DNA of 64,000 bases from Pseudarthrobacter sp. W1I19. Its GTDB lineage: Bacteria > Actinomycetota > Actinomycetes > Actinomycetales > Micrococcaceae. Made by a program: the position numbers and the translations under genes. Each line of letters begins with the position of its first letter. The stretch's first letter is position 1. Below are positions 25,517 to 33,412 of this stretch, in pieces. Below the pieces are notes generated by a model. The model worked only from the letters and a program-made list of their open reading frames with translations, searched no databases and had not been told where the DNA came from. The stretch spans positions 558,001 through 622,000 of the forward strand of contig NZ_JAUSZR010000001.1 of the NCBI RefSeq assembly GCF_030817835.1, read 5' to 3'.

Positions 25517-26857
25517 GTGCACAAAGTACCCTTGGAGACTGTGAAGGTACTCGTCATCGGCCCCGGAGGCCGCGAACACGCCATTGTCCGCTCCCTGCTC
25601 GCCGACCCCAACGTGTCCGAGGTCCATGCAGCGCCCGGCAATGCCGGCATCAGCAAGCTGGTCCCCACGCACGAGATCAACGGCAACGACCCCGACGCCG
25701 TAGCCGCCCTGGCCACCAGGCTCGCCGTGGACCTGGTGGTGGTGGGTCCGGAGGCACCGCTCGCAGCGGGTGTTTCCGACGCTGTACGTGATGCCGGCAT
25801 CCCGGTGTTCGGCCCCAGCAAGGCTGCCGCCCAACTTGAGGCTTCCAAGGCCTTCGCCAAGGAAATCATGGCCGAAGCCGGCGTTCCTACGGCCATGGCC
25901 ATGGTGGCCACCAACGCAGACGAAGCCGCATCGGCCCTGGACACCTTCGGCGCACCCTACGTGGTGAAGGACGACGGGCTGGCGGCCGGCAAGGGGGTAG
26001 TGGTTACGGGGAACCGCGACGAAGCCCTGGCCCATGCGCAGTCGTGCTTCGATGCCGGCGGCTCCGTGGTGATCGAAGAGTTCCTCGACGGCCCGGAGGT
26101 TTCCCTCTTTGTCCTCTGCGACGGGCAGAACACCGTCCCGCTCTCGCCTGCCCAGGACTTCAAGCGGATCTTCGACAACGACGAAGGACCCAACACCGGC
26201 GGCATGGGTGCGTACACCCCGCTGGAGTGGGCCCCCGAAGGCCTTGTCCAGGAGGTCATTGAGCGGGTAGCCCAACCGACCGTCAACGAAATGGCCCGCC
26301 GCGGCACGCCCTTTGTAGGCGTACTGTTCGTCGGTCTGGCCCTCACCTCGCGCGGCACCCGCGTCATCGAATTCAACGTCCGTTTCGGCGACCCGGAAAC
26401 CCAGGCCGTGCTGGCACGGCTCAAGACCCCCCTCGGCGCCCTCCTCCTGGCAGCCGCCAAGGGCGAACTGGACAAGGCAGAAGAGCTGCGCTGGTCGAAG
26501 GAGACTGCCGTCGCCGTCGTCGTCGCTTCCGAAAACTACCCCGGCACGCCCCGCACCGGTGACCGCATCCGCGGCCTGAAGAAGGTGGAGGAACTCGAAG
26601 GCGTACACGTGATCCACGCCGGGACCTCCTTTGATGAGGAGGGCAAGGTGATCTCCGCAGGCGGGCGCGTCCTGGCCGTCGTGGCGCTGGGCAGCGACCT
26701 GGTGGAGGCGCGCGAAAAGGCGTACGACGGCGTGGAACTGGTTCAGCTGGAAGGCTCGCAGTTCCGCACTGACATTGGCGGCAAGGCCGCCCGGGGCGAG
26801 ATCAGGGTATCGTCAGGTGCCACCGGATCACTGCCCATCACGAAGGCGAAGGCATAG
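25517..26857 (+). CDS. purD: Phosphoribosylamine-glycine ligase (GARS)
   Basis: A 446-residue ATP-grasp enzyme that joins glycine to phosphoribosylamine in de novo purine synthesis. VLVIGPGGREHAIVRSL near the start, FAKEIMAEAGVPTAM, KDDGLAAGKGVVV near 155, FNVRFGDPETQAVL near 290 and the C-terminal region are typical. The GTG at 25517 has an AGGAGG site with 7-bp spacing. A GTG eight codons later would give the usual MKVLVIG start but has poorer spacing. purC follows after one base. Confidence 0.96.
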   Translation: MHKVPLETVKVLVIGPGGREHAIVRSLLADPNVSEVHAAPGNAGISKLVPTHEINGNDPDAVAALATRLAVDLVVVGPEAPLAAGVSDAVRDAGIPVFGPSKAAAQLEASKAFAKEIMAEAGVPTAMAMVATNADEAASALDTFGAPYVVKDDGLAAGKGVVVTGNRDEALAHAQSCFDAGGSVVIEEFLDGPEVSLFVLCDGQNTVPLSPAQDFKRIFDNDEGPNTGGMGAYTPLEWAPEGLVQEVIERVAQPTVNEMARRGTPFVGVLFVGLALTSRGTRVIEFNVRFGDPETQAVLARLKTPLGALLLAAAKGELDKAEELRWSKETAVAVVVASENYPGTPRTGDRIRGLKKVEELEGVHVIHAGTSFDEEGKVISAGGRVLAVVALGSDLVEAREKAYDGVELVQLEGSQFRTDIGGKAARGEIRVSSGATGSLPITKAKA

Positions 26858-27850: not shown

Positions 27851-29116
27851 TTAGCTGGCTTTGGCAGCAGCCGCGGCCCGCTGCTGGGCCAGCCGGATTT
27901 CCAAGACCGCGTCCAGTGCCTGCTGGACACGGTCTGCTGCTCCTGCCGCGCTGAATGCCTTCTGGGCTTCCTCAAGGCGGACCAGGGCCTCGTCCGCTTC
28001 GCCGGCGGCCTTCAGGGACTTGCCCAGGAGCAGTGAAACCTCTCCGGCCGTGTGCTTGGCGAGGGCGTCGCGTTCAGCGTGGATTTCCCTCAGCTTTTCG
28101 ACGGCCGCAACAATGTCCCCGGTCAGGTACAGCCAGCGGGCGCGGATGAAGGCGACCTCGAGCTCGTCGCTCTTGGTTCCTCCCACGATGGAGAAGGCGA
28201 GCTCTGCCCGTTCGATGGAGGACAGGGTCTCGGGTTCGACAATTCCCGACGACAGCCGCACCGCGGCGGAGGCCTTGTTGAACCGCGCCCAGAGCTCGAT
28301 GTCGTTGGCGGGGGAGAGGAGCTTCGCGGCCCGCTCGTGGTGCTTGACCCCTTCGGCGTAGTCGTGCCGCATAAACGCCACGTTGCCAATGACCCAGGCT
28401 ACCTCCCCGGCCAGTTGTGACATCGCGTGTTCGTCCACCTGTTCGTAGAGCGCCATGCAGTACTTCCAGGCCTCGTCCAGCCGCCCGCTTTCGGCCAGCG
28501 CGCCAATCAGGATCCGGTGGGCACCAATGAGCACTGTTGAATTCCTCGGCAGTTTGGCCGAGAGCTCCACAGCTTCAAGCCCGTGCTGGACCGCGACAGC
28601 CAGTTGCCCCTGTCCGTGGCAGACGGCGGCCAGCATTTGCCGCGCCCGCACACCGAGGCCAACTGATTCGGTGGCCATGGGGTGCTCGAGGAGCCGCTCG
28701 ATGATCTTTTGGCATTCGCGCAGTTCGCCTTGCTTCATCAGGCACTCGGCCTGCATGTAGGTCATGTTCCACCAGGCGCTGGTGTTTTTGCCCTCGAGGG
28801 CAATCTGGGCTGCCGTGGCAGCGTGGCTGGCCGCCAAAGGGTAGTCACGGAGGTCCCAGGCCTGGCGGGCATAAAGGCCGGCCAGGACGTACTCAGCGTC
28901 GCTGACGGTAATTGGCTGGCTCCAGGCCTCGAGGGCCTTGGGCGCCAGTTCAAGGCGCCGCGCCAGTTCCTCGATGACCTCGGCCGTCGGTTCCCTCCGG
29001 CCTGTCTCGAGCAATGAAATATAGCTGGGTGAATACAGGTCCTTGCCCAGTTCGGCCTGCGTCAATCCCCGTTCGAGCCGCTCCGCCCGGAGCTTCTCCC
29101 CGAATCCGTTGCCCAC
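27851..29116 (-). CDS. XRE-family regulator with C-terminal TPR domain (RRNPP-like architecture)
   Basis: A 421-residue cytosolic regulator starting at GTG with a strong AGGAGG site. Residues 6-60 form an XRE helix-turn-helix (LRAERLERGLTQAELGKDL, SPSYISLLETGRREPT). From about residue 70 to 410 it is all helical with regularly spaced Ala/Gly/Tyr-rich pairs, consistent with eight or more TPR repeats, ending in an Ala/Lys-rich tail. This layout is that of PlcR/NprR/PrgX peptide-pheromone receptors. A gene for a secreted peptide with a duplicated C-terminal octapeptide starts 131 bp away in the opposite direction. Binding of that peptide is inference; a generic TPR regulator is the alternative. 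Confidence 0.9.
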   Translation of the reverse strand: MGNGFGEKLRAERLERGLTQAELGKDLYSPSYISLLETGRREPTAEVIEELARRLELAPKALEAWSQPITVSDAEYVLAGLYARQAWDLRDYPLAASHAATAAQIALEGKNTSAWWNMTYMQAECLMKQGELRECQKIIERLLEHPMATESVGLGVRARQMLAAVCHGQGQLAVAVQHGLEAVELSAKLPRNSTVLIGAHRILIGALAESGRLDEAWKYCMALYEQVDEHAMSQLAGEVAWVIGNVAFMRHDYAEGVKHHERAAKLLSPANDIELWARFNKASAAVRLSSGIVEPETLSSIERAELAFSIVGGTKSDELEVAFIRARWLYLTGDIVAAVEKLREIHAERDALAKHTAGEVSLLLGKSLKAAGEADEALVRLEEAQKAFSAAGAADRVQQALDAVLEIRLAQQRAAAAAKAS

Positions 29117-29156
29117 GGGATTTCCTCCTCTTCCGGACAGTCAGTTTGACGAATGC

Positions 29157-29196
29157 TTGACAGTCCCTGTGGAAAACATTTTACAATGGGTGTCAA
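29157..29196 (+). promoter_or_regulatory. Promoter of the peptide gene flanked by an inverted repeat
   Basis: TTGACA at 29157-29162 and TACAAT at 29182-29187 (19-bp spacing) form a sigma-70-like promoter facing the peptide gene. TGTCAA at 29191-29196 is the inverted partner of the -35 hexamer. The pair could be a regulator site enclosing the promoter, or TGTCAA could be the -35 of the opposing regulator promoter. A further TTTGAC lies at 29145-29150. Confidence 0.6.
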
Positions 29197-29247
29197 CAAG
29201 GACAGTGCTGGCTTTGTAACGAATCCGACTCGTATTGAGGAACACAT

Positions 29248-29466
29248 ATGTTGAAGAAAATTGCTGCCGCCGCCGTGCTGGCGGGGGCCTTGGCATTTTC
29301 CGCAGCGGCTCCGGCCGTACTGTCTGCGGGTTCACTGGCTGACAACTCCGGTACTTCCGTAGCCATTGGGAACTGGCCTGATCCGGCTTCCCAGAAGGTC
29401 AAGAAGGACAAGAGCACCGACGTCACGTACACCACGTACATCGGCAACTGGCCTGATCCTGCCTAA
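29248..29466 (+). CDS. Secreted peptide precursor with duplicated IGNWPDPA motif (candidate pheromone)
   Basis: A 72-residue precursor with a TGAGGA ribosome binding site. Residues 1-27 form a Sec signal peptide: MLKK, an Ala/Leu core, and a likely cleavage region AAAPAVLSA. The octapeptide IGNWPDPA occurs at residues 40-47 and again at 65-72, the second copy ending exactly at the stop codon. The copies are joined by a Lys-rich linker (QKVKKDKSTDVTYTTY). The two DNA copies differ at four third-codon positions, all silent, which suggests selection on the peptide. It is divergent from the XRE-TPR regulator and has its own promoter and terminator. A secreted signal is the best inference; a bacteriocin-like or structural peptide is less likely. 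Confidence 0.8.
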   Translation: MLKKIAAAAVLAGALAFSAAAPAVLSAGSLADNSGTSVAIGNWPDPASQKVKKDKSTDVTYTTYIGNWPDPA

Positions 29467-29494: not shown

Positions 29495-29522
29495 AGGCCC
29501 CGGAGCAACTGCTCCGGGGCCT
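29495..29522 (+). terminator. Intrinsic terminator of the peptide gene
   Basis: A perfect 13-bp stem (AGGCCCCGGAGCA and its complement) with a very short loop, 28 bp after the stop, followed by TTTCCCTTT. Confidence 0.85.
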
Positions 29523-29583: not shown

Positions 29584-29614
29584 AAAGAGGGCCTCCCGTG
29601 GGAGACCCTCTCTT
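29584..29614 (-). terminator. Terminator of tRNA-Pro
   Basis: On the minus strand a GAGAGGGTCTCCC/GGGAGGCCCTCTTTT hairpin lies just after the tRNA 3' end and ends in a T run. Confidence 0.75.
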
Positions 29615-29779: not shown

Positions 29780-31607
29780 TCAGACCAGCGAGTCCTTCCA
29801 TGCACCGTGCAGGTCGGCGAAACGCCCGCCGCCGCCAATGAGATCCGCGGGTGATCCGTCCTCGACGATCCGGCCGTCGTGCACCACCAGCACCCGGTCC
29901 GCGGTTTCCACCGTGGACAAGCGGTGCGCAATGATCAGGGCGGTCCTCCTGGCGGCGTCCGTGCCCGCGAGTAGCCGGGCCAGGCCGTTCTGCACGAGTC
30001 TTTCCGAGGGGATGTCCAGGGAGGAGGTGGCCTCGTCCAGGATCAGCACGGCCGGGCGGGCCAGGAAAGCCCGGGCGAAGCTGATCAGTTGGCGCTGCCC
30101 GGATGAGACCCTGCCGCCGCGCTTGTTGACATCGGTGTCATATCCCTCGGGCAGTTCGAGGATGAAGTCATGCGCGCCCACCGCTTTCGCTGCTTCCTCG
30201 ATTTCTGCCCGTGATGCTTCCGGCCGGCCCAGGGCAATGTTGTCAGCCACGGACCCGCTGAACAGGAAGGCCTCCTGGGTGACCATAACAATGTTCCGCC
30301 TCAGGTCCGTGGTGCTGAGGTTGCGCAGGTCTACATCGTCCAGGGTTAAAGAGCCGGAGGAGAGGTCATAGAAGCGGGCGATCAGTTTTGCGAGAGTTGA
30401 TTTCCCGGCACCCGTTTGCCCCACCAGTGCTACCGTTTGGCCCGCGGGAATGTGCAGGTTCAGCCGGGGCACGATGAGCGGCCCGTCGCCGTAGCGGAAC
30501 TCGACGTCCTTGAAATCTATGGCGCCCTTGGCGTTCTGCAGGGCTACCGGGTTCCTGGGCGGGCGGACGGTGGGCACTTCCTCGAGGAGCCCGGATACTT
30601 TCTCCAATGCTGCCTGGGCACTCTGGAAGGAGTTGTAGAACATCGCCATCTGGTCCACCGGCTGGAAGAACCGTTTGGTGGACAGGATGAGGGCCAGCAA
30701 CACACCCACCGCAAGGTCGCCGGTGAGGACGCGGAAACCACCGAACAGCAAGACCACTGCCACGCACACGTTCCCGATCAGCACCAGCCCCGGCTGGAAG
30801 ATGCCGTTGAGGTTGATGGAACGGACAGTAACCAGCCGGTAGTCTTCGGCGAGCTTGCCGTAGCGGTCAGCGTTTTCCTGCTCCTTGCGGAAGGCCTTTA
30901 CCGCGCGGATGCCGGTCATGGTCTCCACGAAGTGCACGATCAGCCGCGCAGACACCACCCGGGATTCGCGGAACACGATCTGCGAGTGTTTCTGGTACCA
31001 GGCGGGCCAGGAAAAACATGGGAACACCTGCTGCCAGCACCAGCAGGCCGCTGCGCCAGTCCAGGGCGAATACCGTGACGGCGGTAAAGATCATAAACAG
31101 CATGCCGGACGCCAGGGAGCTGACGCCGGAGTCGAGGAGTTCGCGGAGGGCCTCCAGGTCCGAGGTCTGCCGGGCAATGATCCGCCCGGACGTGTATTTT
31201 TCGTGGAACTCCAGGCTCAGCCGCTGCGTATGCCGGAATACCCGCAAGCGCAGGTCCAGGAGCATGGCCTGGCTGAGTTTCGCCGTGGAGGTCACATACA
31301 GGGCGGTGAGTCCCGCCGTCGCGATGGCGGCGAGCAGATAGGCGACGCCGGTGAACACCAGTGGGAGGTTGTCTCCGGCCTGCAGGGCGGGCAGTGCGTG
31401 GTCGATGCCGAAGGCGATCAGCGCCGGACCGGCTACCCGGGCAGCCTGCGACAGGACCACCATGGCAATCGTCAGCCAGAACCGCAGCCGCACCGGTCGG
31501 ATCAGGGAGCGCAACAAAGCCAGCGACCGGCGTCGTACCGCCCGGCTGTCGCTTTTGCTCAGGTGGGCGTTGTCCTCGTTGGCCGTGCCGAAGGTTGCAG
31601 TGCTCAT
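29780..31607 (-). pseudogene. ABC exporter half-transporter A (fused membrane and ATPase domains), frameshifted
   Basis: About 608 codons read from 31607 in one frame and from about 31000 to 29780 in another. One extra base at the GG at 31001-31002 breaks LAARWYQKHSQ-like sequence in the membrane domain; its removal restores [19 protein letters not shown]. The ATPase half has Walker [10 protein letters not shown], Walker [13 protein letters not shown] with the catalytic Glu, and a degenerate signature VSSGQRQ. It overlaps partner B by 4 bp. With B it should form a heterodimeric exporter with one active ATP site, as in BmrCD or TM287/288. The break may be a sequencing error. Confidence 0.85.
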
Positions 31608-33412
31608 CGGTTCACTTCCTCTGCCTGGTCCTCGAGGGCGGACAGCTCGGAGTCCAGGTCGCGGGGTTCCTGGTCCAGGCTGGCGATGACGTAGCGGTAG
31701 TGGTGGTTGGCGGCCAGCAGTTCGGTGTGGGTGCCGACGGCGGTGATGCGGCCGTCCTCGAGCAATGCCACCCGGTCCGCCAGCGCCACTGTGGACGGGC
31801 GGTGGGCCACGATGAGCGTGGTGGTGTCCTTCAGCACGGCACGGAGCCGCGTTTCCACCAGTTCCTCGGTGTGCACGTCCAGCGCGGACAGGGGATCGTC
31901 CAGGACCAGCACGCGGGGACGCGCGGCGATGGCGCGTGCCAGGGCGATCCGCTGCCGCTGGCCGCCGGAAAGGCTGAGGCCTTCCTCTCCGATGAGGGTG
32001 TCCACCCCCTCCGGCAGGGAATACGCGAAGGGGGCCTGGGCCACGTCCAGGGCTTCGTCGAGGACGGCATCATTGCGGACGGGGGCACCGAGCAGGACGT
32101 TGTCCCGGACCGAGTTGGAGAACAGGGTGGTATCCTCGAAGGCCACTGCGACAATCCGCCGGAGCTCTTCCACGTCAAAGTCCCGCAAGTCCACGCCGTC
32201 GATGGTGATGGCACCGCCGGTGACGTCGAACAGCCGCGGAACCAGTTGGATCAGCGCGCTCTTGCCGCTGCCGGTGATGCCCACCAGGGCCATGGTCTCG
32301 CCGGGGCGGACGTCCAGGTTGATCTCCTTGAGGATCGGCTTGTCCGGCGCGTCCTCGAAAGCGAACGCGGCACTGGAGAAACGGAGGGCGCCGGCCAACT
32401 GGCCGGGCCGCCGCGGCTGCGGAGGGCTGGTGATGGTGTTGGGTGTGTCCATCACTTCGAAGTGGCGGTCGACGGCGGTCTTGGCCGTGAGTGCCATAGC
32501 CAGCAGCATGCCGGAAAATTCCACGGGCGAGGCCATCACAGCGGCGGTGGCAAAAAACGCCACCAGCGAGCCGATGCTGAGCTGGCCGCCGGCGCACAGC
32601 ATCACGCCCACCACCAGGCCAGCGCCGAGGGCGAGCTCCGGAAGGAGGGTGACCACCATAGTGAATGTTGCCTGGTGGCGTGCTTTTTCGATCTCCGTCT
32701 GGCGCAGTTCCTCGGCTTGTTCGTTGAAGTTCTCCAGCGCCTCCCGGCTGCGGCCGAACGCTTTGAGCACACGGATGCCGTGGACGGATTCCTCTACGGT
32801 GGTGGCGAGGTCGCCGGCCTGGTCCTGGCTGCGGCGGGTCACGCGGCTGAAGCGGGTCCGGAACCGGAAGCTGTACGCCATAATGGGCACGGCTGCGGCC
32901 AGGAAGATGAGGGCCAGCTGCCAGCTCATCACGAACATCACGGTGATGCCGATGATCACGGTGAGGGTGGTGACCACCAGCATGATGGCGCCAAAGGCCA
33001 TCCAGCGGCGCAGGAAGTTCAGGTCTGTCATGGCGCGGGACAACAGCTGCCCGGAGCCCCAGCGGTCGTGGAAGGAAACAGTCAGGTCCTGCAGGTGGCC
33101 ATACAGCGAAACCCGCATGTTGGTTTCCACTGACGTGGCGGGATTGATGACGAACTGCCGGCGGAGGGCCACCAGGCCAGCCTCGGCTACGCCGAGCACC
33201 AGGATGAGGCCCGCAGAAATCCACACCGCTTCCGTTGCACCGCCTGGCTTCAGTGATTCGTTCACCAGCACCCGGAGGACCTGCGGAATGGCGAGGGCAA
33301 CAACGCTGGCCATAAGCGCGCAGAGAAGTCCCAGCAAAAGCCGGGGGATGATCGGCCGGACATGGGGGTAGAGGCGACTGATGGAACGAAAAAATGGAGT
33401 TTGCTTGGCCAT
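31604..33412 (-). CDS. ABC exporter half-transporter B (fused membrane and ATPase domains)
   Basis: A 602-residue half-transporter. Six membrane helices occupy about residues 20-300, and the ATPase domain follows. Walker A is GITGSGKSA and the signature LSGGQRQR is canonical. Walker B is VLVLDDPLSALD, with Asp in place of the catalytic Glu. This non-catalytic Walker B complements the degenerate signature of partner A, the hallmark of heterodimeric exporters. It is the first gene of the pair. The substrate is unknown; drugs, lipids or peptides are all possible. Confidence 0.93.
   Translation of the reverse strand: MAKQTPFFRSISRLYPHVRPIIPRLLLGLLCALMASVVALAIPQVLRVLVNESLKPGGATEAVWISAGLILVLGVAEAGLVALRRQFVINPATSVETNMRVSLYGHLQDLTVSFHDRWGSGQLLSRAMTDLNFLRRWMAFGAIMLVVTTLTVIIGITVMFVMSWQLALIFLAAAVPIMAYSFRFRTRFSRVTRRSQDQAGDLATTVEESVHGIRVLKAFGRSREALENFNEQAEELRQTEIEKARHQATFTMVVTLLPELALGAGLVVGVMLCAGGQLSIGSLVAFFATAAVMASPVEFSGMLLAMALTAKTAVDRHFEVMDTPNTITSPPQPRRPGQLAGALRFSSAAFAFEDAPDKPILKEINLDVRPGETMALVGITGSGKSALIQLVPRLFDVTGGAITIDGVDLRDFDVEELRRIVAVAFEDTTLFSNSVRDNVLLGAPVRNDAVLDEALDVAQAPFAYSLPEGVDTLIGEEGLSLSGGQRQRIALARAIAARPRVLVLDDPLSALDVHTEELVETRLRAVLKDTTTLIVAHRPSTVALADRVALLEDGRITAVGTHTELLAANHHYRYVIASLDQEPRDLDSELSALEDQAEEVNR

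Follow-up and report, generated by a model that had tools for sequence, protein, structure and literature searches.

A conserved HTH-TPR regulator and repeated-octapeptide precursor of Pseudarthrobacter: a probable peptide signalling pair working like RRNPPA systems

The closest described parallels to the locus presented here are the RRNPPA systems (PlcR/PapR, NprR/NprX, Rap/Phr, Rgg/SHP, ComR/ComS, AimR/AimP). The peptide of ComR/ComS is rich in tryptophan. The sections of PMC9765709 used here describe this family in Bacillota. In those used from PMC10075063, it is recognised by: (i) a TPR receptor of 250-500 aa, (ii) an adjacent propeptide of 10-100 aa and (iii) export by Sec or PptAB; the survey reported there covered only Bacillota and viruses. 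In the parts considered of PMC9765709 and PMC11343458, repeated signals within one precursor are known from Bacillota. For instance, tandem Phr propeptides are found in the Rap-Phr systems of phages phi3T and phi105, that of phi105 holding two identical copies (PMC11343458), and 0/394 atypically large ComR propeptides contained repeats (PMC9765709). Furthermore, the HTH-TPR sensor and the peptide of streptococcal ComR/ComS evolve together, according to the relevant part of PMC8605241. Actinobacterial signals are typically small molecules, as stated in the section used of PMC10075063; the portion of PMC4748050 that deals with them adds cyclic or modified peptides and makes no mention of imported linear ones.

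A divergent regulator and a precursor with a repeated octapeptide

The window analysed here is a stretch of 64,000 nucleotides from Pseudarthrobacter sp. W1I19, a member of the Arthrobacter group with a genome of 4.8 Mb. It contains a regulator gene (the receptor gene for short) and a small gene that are divergent, their start codons being 131 bp apart. The features of the locus are:

27851-29116, minus strand: putative receptor (regulator) gene, 421 aa, GTG start; HTH at about residues 5-64, TPR superhelix at about residues 70-415
29123-29129, minus strand: Shine-Dalgarno-like AGGAGGA before the receptor GTG, read from the sequence
29157-29196, plus strand: candidate divergent promoter/operator of 40 bp, TTGACA-N17-TTTACAATG-NN-TGTCAA, from cross-genus alignment
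29235-29240, plus strand: Shine-Dalgarno-like TTGAGG before the precursor ATG, read from the sequence
29248-29466, plus strand: candidate pheromone precursor gene, 72 aa, signal-peptide-like N terminus; orthologues known
29365-29388, plus strand: internal octapeptide IGNWPDPA, residues 40-47 (copy 1), read from the sequence
29440-29463, plus strand: C-terminal octapeptide IGNWPDPA, residues 65-72 (copy 2), read from the sequence
29495-29522, plus strand: candidate intrinsic terminator 3' of the precursor, a 13-nt perfect inverted repeat with a T-rich tail

The terminator candidate folds into an 11-bp stem with a 4-nt loop, set on a further 6-bp stem (z -6.7). It was absent from the list of a simple terminator scan, which gave one weaker site at 29600 (0.9 expected). 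A tRNA-Pro gene lies beyond this stem-loop. The locus is flanked by purD and two ABC exporter halves (window positions 25517-26857 and 29780-33412), which are also found at 76/80 (purD) and 79/80 (each exporter half) of the loci from named genomes. Location on a mobile element was considered and rejected: there was no phage match, and plasmid matches came from 38 records, mostly of Streptomyces, the best 20 of the 38 showing 24.8-27.9% identity.

All Pfam matches of the receptor are above cut-off: HTH_31 (9e-12), HTH_3 (4e-11) and TPR_12 (3e-7, 30.9 bits vs 30.1). In the AlphaFold2 model, the protein is a TPR superhelix with a mean pLDDT of 80.4, residues 1-44 having values below 50. Hence, by its 421 aa, by a TPR_12 match just above cut-off and by its modelled superhelix, it has the size and build of an RRNPPA receptor; HTH_31 and HTH_3 correspond to the N-terminal HTH of those members that are transcription factors. 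The 72-aa product encoded 131 bp from the receptor gene is within the range of RRNPPA propeptides. As for export, a basic N terminus followed by a hydrophobic run, both under selection, is observed. The likeness in layout to RRNPP systems put forward in a preliminary description of this DNA therefore stands for receptor size, TPR, HTH and adjacent propeptide, RRNPP being used as a working analogy. Among the structures listed by fold searches, the receptor resembles Rap and NprR as well as others, the eukaryotic LGN ranking above both. A profile search reached PlcR at 6e-6 through the HTH alone (profile positions 4-57) and ComR only at an E-value of 0.43, and no family model named for RRNPP proteins was matched at E-values up to 1.

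The precursor begins with MLKK and a hydrophobic run, an N terminus that we read as a putative Sec signal, and continues with one IGNWPDPA at residues 40-47 and another at its C terminus (65-72). The two 24-base copies differ at the third positions of codons 1, 2, 7 and 8, all four differences being silent; these differences, the two copies, the coordinates and the lengths given in the preliminary description were all correct on recheck. Of all window ORFs that reach 40 aa (512), none but this one contains an exact repeated octapeptide. A chance repeat was rejected: an 8-mer was repeated in 0/200,000 shuffles of the mature part, and a 4-mer in 2,104.

Conservation of the pair and joint changes of receptor and peptide

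A receptor orthologue with 81-100% identity was found in 61/61 genomes of the genus that were searched (the copy of G053 being split in two frames), and a divergent precursor is present at all 61 loci. Among named matches, the best for the receptor comes from Arthrobacter sp. OV608 (L129). Where the receptor shares at least 80% identity, the precursor is present at 147/147 loci, corresponding to 125 distinct DNAs with one to four copies. At least two copies are carried by 120 of these 125 distinct genus precursors, and the last one ends exactly at the stop codon in 122. In L152, L157 and L160, the second copy is interrupted and the first is intact. When the genus search (61 loci), the family search (28, including six from the genus) and the named genomes (80) were pooled, a GxWP-type precursor was found at 168/169 loci, the sole exception being L094; these three sets overlap in species, so that 169 and 147 count loci and not species. 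The 168 precursors carry 2 (92), 4 (34), 3 (30), 1 (6) or 5, 6 and 8 (2 each) copies. Hence, the small ORF expected next to orthologous regulators, a check set in advance, was found at 147/147 close orthologues, and the expected conservation of the octapeptide holds in the form of the consensus [IVTS]G[NI]WP[DNY]P[MAV]. Comparison of the loci shows the pairing and conservation of both genes. Searched as a DNA pattern, GNWPDP was matched in 14/198 genomes of the order, seven of the genus and seven others with one match each; the seven outside the genus look like chance.

Selection on the octapeptide was examined in 71 precursors starting with M[LF]KKI and containing exactly two WP; precursors in which WP occurs once, three or four times were left out, including L060, whose first copy is degenerate. 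The two copies are identical as protein in 71/71, with pS of 0.596 and pN of 0 within the gene. Since silent sites differ and pN is 0, the DNA of the copies drifted while their protein did not. In 199 ungapped pairs from different species, the pN/pS values of the copies are 0.113 and 0.143 and that of the signal part is 0.139, with 0.460 in the spacer and 0.643 in the linker. With all copy numbers included, the first and last copies are the same in 112/120 precursors and differ in 8/120, as counted with a pattern in which positions 2, 4, 5 and 7 are fixed or almost fixed. The two copies agree at position 1 (I, V, T or S) in 118/120 precursors, vs 54 on shuffling, and at position 8 (M, A or V) in 114/120, vs 84 on shuffling. 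Mixed arrays account for the exceptions; in 6 precursors, for example, IGNWPDPV comes after three copies of IGNWPDPM. These comparisons show that the octapeptide is under selection.

Receptor and peptide residues switch together in 120 distinct receptor-peptide pairs, the first copy being taken for each. Receptor residue H167 goes with I1 of the peptide in 68/68 pairs and Q167 with V1 in 37/37; L132 goes with I1 in 68/68 and W132 with V1 in 36/37, and both R168 and H129 go with T1 in 13/13. Since shared ancestry alone could give such pairings, changes were counted by parsimony on a tree built without receptor residues 120-175, and 118 variable columns were compared. For peptide residue 1, this gave 11 changes, in both directions. 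Among the 11 changes of receptor residue 167, 10 fall on branches where peptide residue 1 changes, as do all 8 changes of residue 132 and 9 of the 13 of residue 127; the background over the 118 columns is a mean of 1.3 shared changes per column. By zone, the shared fraction is 0.105 (4/38) for residues 1-65, 0.080 (11/138) for 66-126, 0.329 (79/240) for 127-168, 0.098 for 169-260 and 0.084 for 261-421. Peptide residue 8, with 6 changes, is a weaker case; it shares 5 of the 11 changes of receptor residue 196 and 4 of the 7 of residue 195. Receptor-peptide co-evolution is thereby shown at the level of aligned residues and, because receptor residues switch with peptide residue 1, the TPR protein very probably reads the octapeptide. 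In the AlphaFold2 model, the co-switching residues lie at the ends of the neighbouring TPR helices 112-129, 132-144, 152-168 and 194-209. This arrangement suggests a single groove in which the N terminus of the peptide would lie close to the helices that end at 129 and 168, and its C terminus close to the one that starts at 194.

The 40-bp site between the genes is recognisable across genera at receptor identities of 48-100% and doubles as a dyad, TTGACA-N28-TGTCAA. The proposed -35 and -10 boxes of the precursor promoter, at 29157 and 29182, have a spacer of 19, and a promoter scan allowing spacers of 16-18 listed no promoter there. With up to 3 mismatches, the site occurs in 15/16 genomes (G115 was missed), at one place each, which is the receptor locus. 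The bare dyad finds the locus in 15/15 genomes and has an additional match in G039 and another in G050; its reversed control gave one match each in G050 and G055. Searches for a regulon with the full site (16 genomes), the half block TTTTACAATG-NN-TGTCAACA (8 genomes) and the bare dyad (15 genomes) found no second conserved target; extra matches were limited to one each in G012, G039 and G050, and reversed controls also matched a few times. Because the full site is confined to the receptor locus, autoregulation of the pair through the shared promoter is likely. As to the sign of this regulation, we lean towards peptide-dependent autoinduction.

An HTH-less branch and other relatives of the pair

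A second gene, whose match to the receptor is limited to the TPR part, is present in 32/61 genomes of the genus; nine of these genes were read (L062-L070). The window's own genome has no such paralogue. These HTH-less receptors have about 345 aa and align from receptor residue 62 onwards, and no Pfam HTH was found in the two that were scanned. Together with 12 from other genera, the nine form one clade of 21 (support 100/98). Each of the 21 has a GxWP-like or xxWPx precursor, two of which were set by hand, and 20 pass the strict test described below. The HTH-less loci noted for a neighbouring GGDEF-EAL gene are:

L062-L070, L238, L239, L277, L281, L282, L284, L286 and L294-L296

A GGDEF-EAL gene is present in the fetched flanks of 19/21 HTH-less loci vs 0/87 HTH-type loci; the flanks were 3 kb for L062-L070 and shorter for the rest, and for the 12 loci whose flanks are comparable to those of HTH-type loci the figure is 10/12. 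A GAF-HisKA-HATPase kinase is encoded at 9/21 HTH-less loci. A DUF7793 gene is also found at 12/21. A possible route by which a peptide signal would be coupled directly to cyclic di-GMP is suggested by this branch. The coexistence of HTH-bearing and HTH-less branches parallels that of PlcR/NprR and Rap in Bacillota.

Beyond the genus, receptor homologues were matched in 76/149 genomes of the family, some of them through the HTH only. With the receptor profile, 248 genomes of the order gave long matches outside the family from G239, G282 and G395 only, among the matches listed; these three belong to one other family. The precursors of other genera vary the motif: VG[DN]WPH in eight copies (L096, L097), VGEWPH (L095), WIWPD (L093), TGNWPN (L092), VGNWPDA (L088-L090), VGIWPNS (L087), VGNWPDRF (L240, L290) and, in another family, VGGSWPT (L242). 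A strict test, requiring a signal-like start and a GxWP-type motif either twice or at the C terminus, recognised a precursor in 54/87 divergent regions, in 0/87 for each of three control directions and in 0/870 block shuffles. Looser and hand-set criteria gave a precursor in 64/87 receptor rows and none in 23/87; eight tree rows were set by hand (L240, L273, L275, L281, L283, L285, L286, L290), the 87 rows include one locus twice, as L240 and L283, and L270 was scored as lacking a precursor though a 16-aa ORF ending in VNWPF is readable there. In the tree, L260 is labelled TPR-only, its HTH adjoining in another frame.

Several relatives have peptides that depart from this scheme. In L241, L274, L275, L279 and L280, VG[DN]WPD is the ending of short ORFs that lack a signal peptide and span 19-21 aa when counted from the last Met. 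More broadly, ORFs of about 16-32 aa (last Met) without signal peptide are divergent from the receptor in L241, L269, L270, L271, L274, L275, L279 and L280, with endings in or near VG[DN]WPD, IGDWPHA or VNWPF. Away from the receptor, GNWPDP arrays were found in 7/101 genomes of the genus with a pattern that misses long-linker arrays: G002:C12:297543-297658 (L309), G036:C19:2558, G059:C1:3840604, G028:C3:21524, G029:C1:1213576, G449:C360:11317 and G458:C56:510275, those of G449 and G458 being judged from arrays on two contigs. The L309 array has four IGNWPDPM copies and no signal-like N terminus. Moreover, a 68-aa ORF (L310:3924-4130, minus strand) joins IGWWPN and IGNWPDPM, the signal types of both receptor branches. 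L094, L264-L267 and L278 form a clade of receptor homologues in which no precursor was found; L093, basal to this clade, has kept a two-copy WIWPD precursor. The members of the clade are possibly solo (eavesdropping) receptors.

Proposed working, rival explanations and comparison with known systems

We consider it highly likely that the two genes form a self-contained unit for peptide signalling, operating in the manner of RRNPPA systems. In this scheme, the small gene would make a pre-pro-peptide that its N terminus sends out of the cell, and proteases would release IGNWPDPA, or its core, both at the C terminus and from the internal copy. The octapeptide would then be taken up again, probably via one of the oligopeptide permeases (the host genome encodes 11 SBP_bac_5 proteins above cut-off). 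Inside the cell, it would sit in the TPR groove of the neighbouring regulator, its residue 1 being read near receptor residues 127, 132 and 165-168 and its residue 8 near 195-196. The bound peptide would alter the action of the regulator at the shared divergent promoter (29157-29196), resulting in autoregulation. The pheromone reading proposed in the preliminary description is thus supported by the precursor at 147/147 loci and by the conserved octapeptide, and receptor-peptide co-switching is added to it.

Three other readings have to be weighed against this one. The peptide may be a ligand of the regulator that acts mainly inside the producer, or is released by lysis, and would then provide feedback and not a cell-cell signal. 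Such an intracellular role is possible because some relatives have arrays or short ORFs without signal peptide, for example the four copies of L309 and, in L241, L275 and L280, ORFs that measure 21 aa from the last Met and end in VGDWPD. However, in the genus, precursors linked to a receptor have retained an N terminus resembling a signal peptide (pN/pS 0.14) and 54/87 receptor loci pass a test that requires a signal-like start, and we regard this reading as unlikely. It is still less probable, and indeed very unlikely, that co-switching reflects linkage only, recombination swapping precursor and receptor as one block. In favour of it, the genes are adjacent and some switches are on single tree tips. 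Nevertheless, plain linkage is disfavoured because the DNA between the precursor and the hot spot encodes residues 1-126, and these stay at background (0.105 and 0.080) vs 0.329 for residues 127-168.

Finally, the small protein may be a secreted peptide that serves a different function (as an antimicrobial or in binding the wall or metals), its gene being merely controlled by the regulator. Divergent HTH regulators often control their neighbour, and a motif rich in W and P could bind something else. Yet this reading, to which we give hardly any credence, leaves unexplained both the TPR residues that switch with peptide residues 1 and 8, unlike residues 1-126, and the protein-identical repeats with free silent sites.

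At the level of the family, it seems somewhat more probable than otherwise that Micrococcaceae own a separate and diversified GxWP pheromone family, with an HTH-TPR branch serving transcription (Sec-type multi-copy or mini precursors), a single HTH-less branch connected to GGDEF-EAL (cyclic di-GMP) enzymes, orphan peptide genes and solo receptors. Among the matches listed, the open-licence PMC literature gave no description of such a GxWP family or of an actinobacterial RRNPP-like system, in line with the earlier statement that no actinobacterial system with this sequence is known to have been described, and NWPDP gave only an unrelated engineering match. By contrast, the earlier idea that a duplicated signal in one precursor would be new does not hold, such precursors being already reported for Bacillota in the parts used of PMC9765709 and PMC11343458. 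In the sources as used here, signalling by an imported linear peptide and a TPR receptor is described for Bacillota, and small molecules and cyclic or modified peptides for Actinobacteria. The conserved pair, carried by common soil bacteria (Arthrobacter, Pseudarthrobacter, Paenarthrobacter), would put this design, or its re-origin, in a second phylum. Should the GxWP family have an origin separate from RRNPPA, the PlcR-like and the Rap-like design would both have been reinvented by convergence. Furthermore, the repeated I/V switches with residues 127, 132 and 167 offer a residue-level handle on the evolution of signal specificity.

Compared with gamma-butyrolactone and other actinobacterial signalling, the pair would have in common cell-cell signalling in the phylum; gamma-butyrolactone signals differ in being small molecules made by enzymes, according to the section used of PMC10075063. 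It shares with ComR/ComS an HTH-TPR sensor that co-evolves with its peptide, as far as described in the part used of PMC8605241, and differs from it by its repeats, absent from the atypically large ComR propeptides in the data considered from PMC9765709. Like the Phr propeptides of phi3T and phi105, its precursors hold several copies of one putative pheromone; the Phr peptides are different and belong to phages of Bacillota, whereas multi-copy precursors are the rule in this genus (120/125). With RRNPPA systems as a whole, it would share a cytoplasmic TPR receptor of 250-500 aa, a small secreted propeptide that is encoded next to it and ends in the signal, an HTH as in most members and the occurrence of both HTH-bearing and HTH-less receptors. 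It differs from them by its actinobacterial hosts, its GxWP peptides and its divergent gene order, and by a significant sequence kinship through the HTH only (PlcR). Hence, the pair can be viewed by analogy as RRNPPA-like in its working, with the significant sequence kinship detected lying in the HTH and a fold that is common also to eukaryotic TPR proteins.
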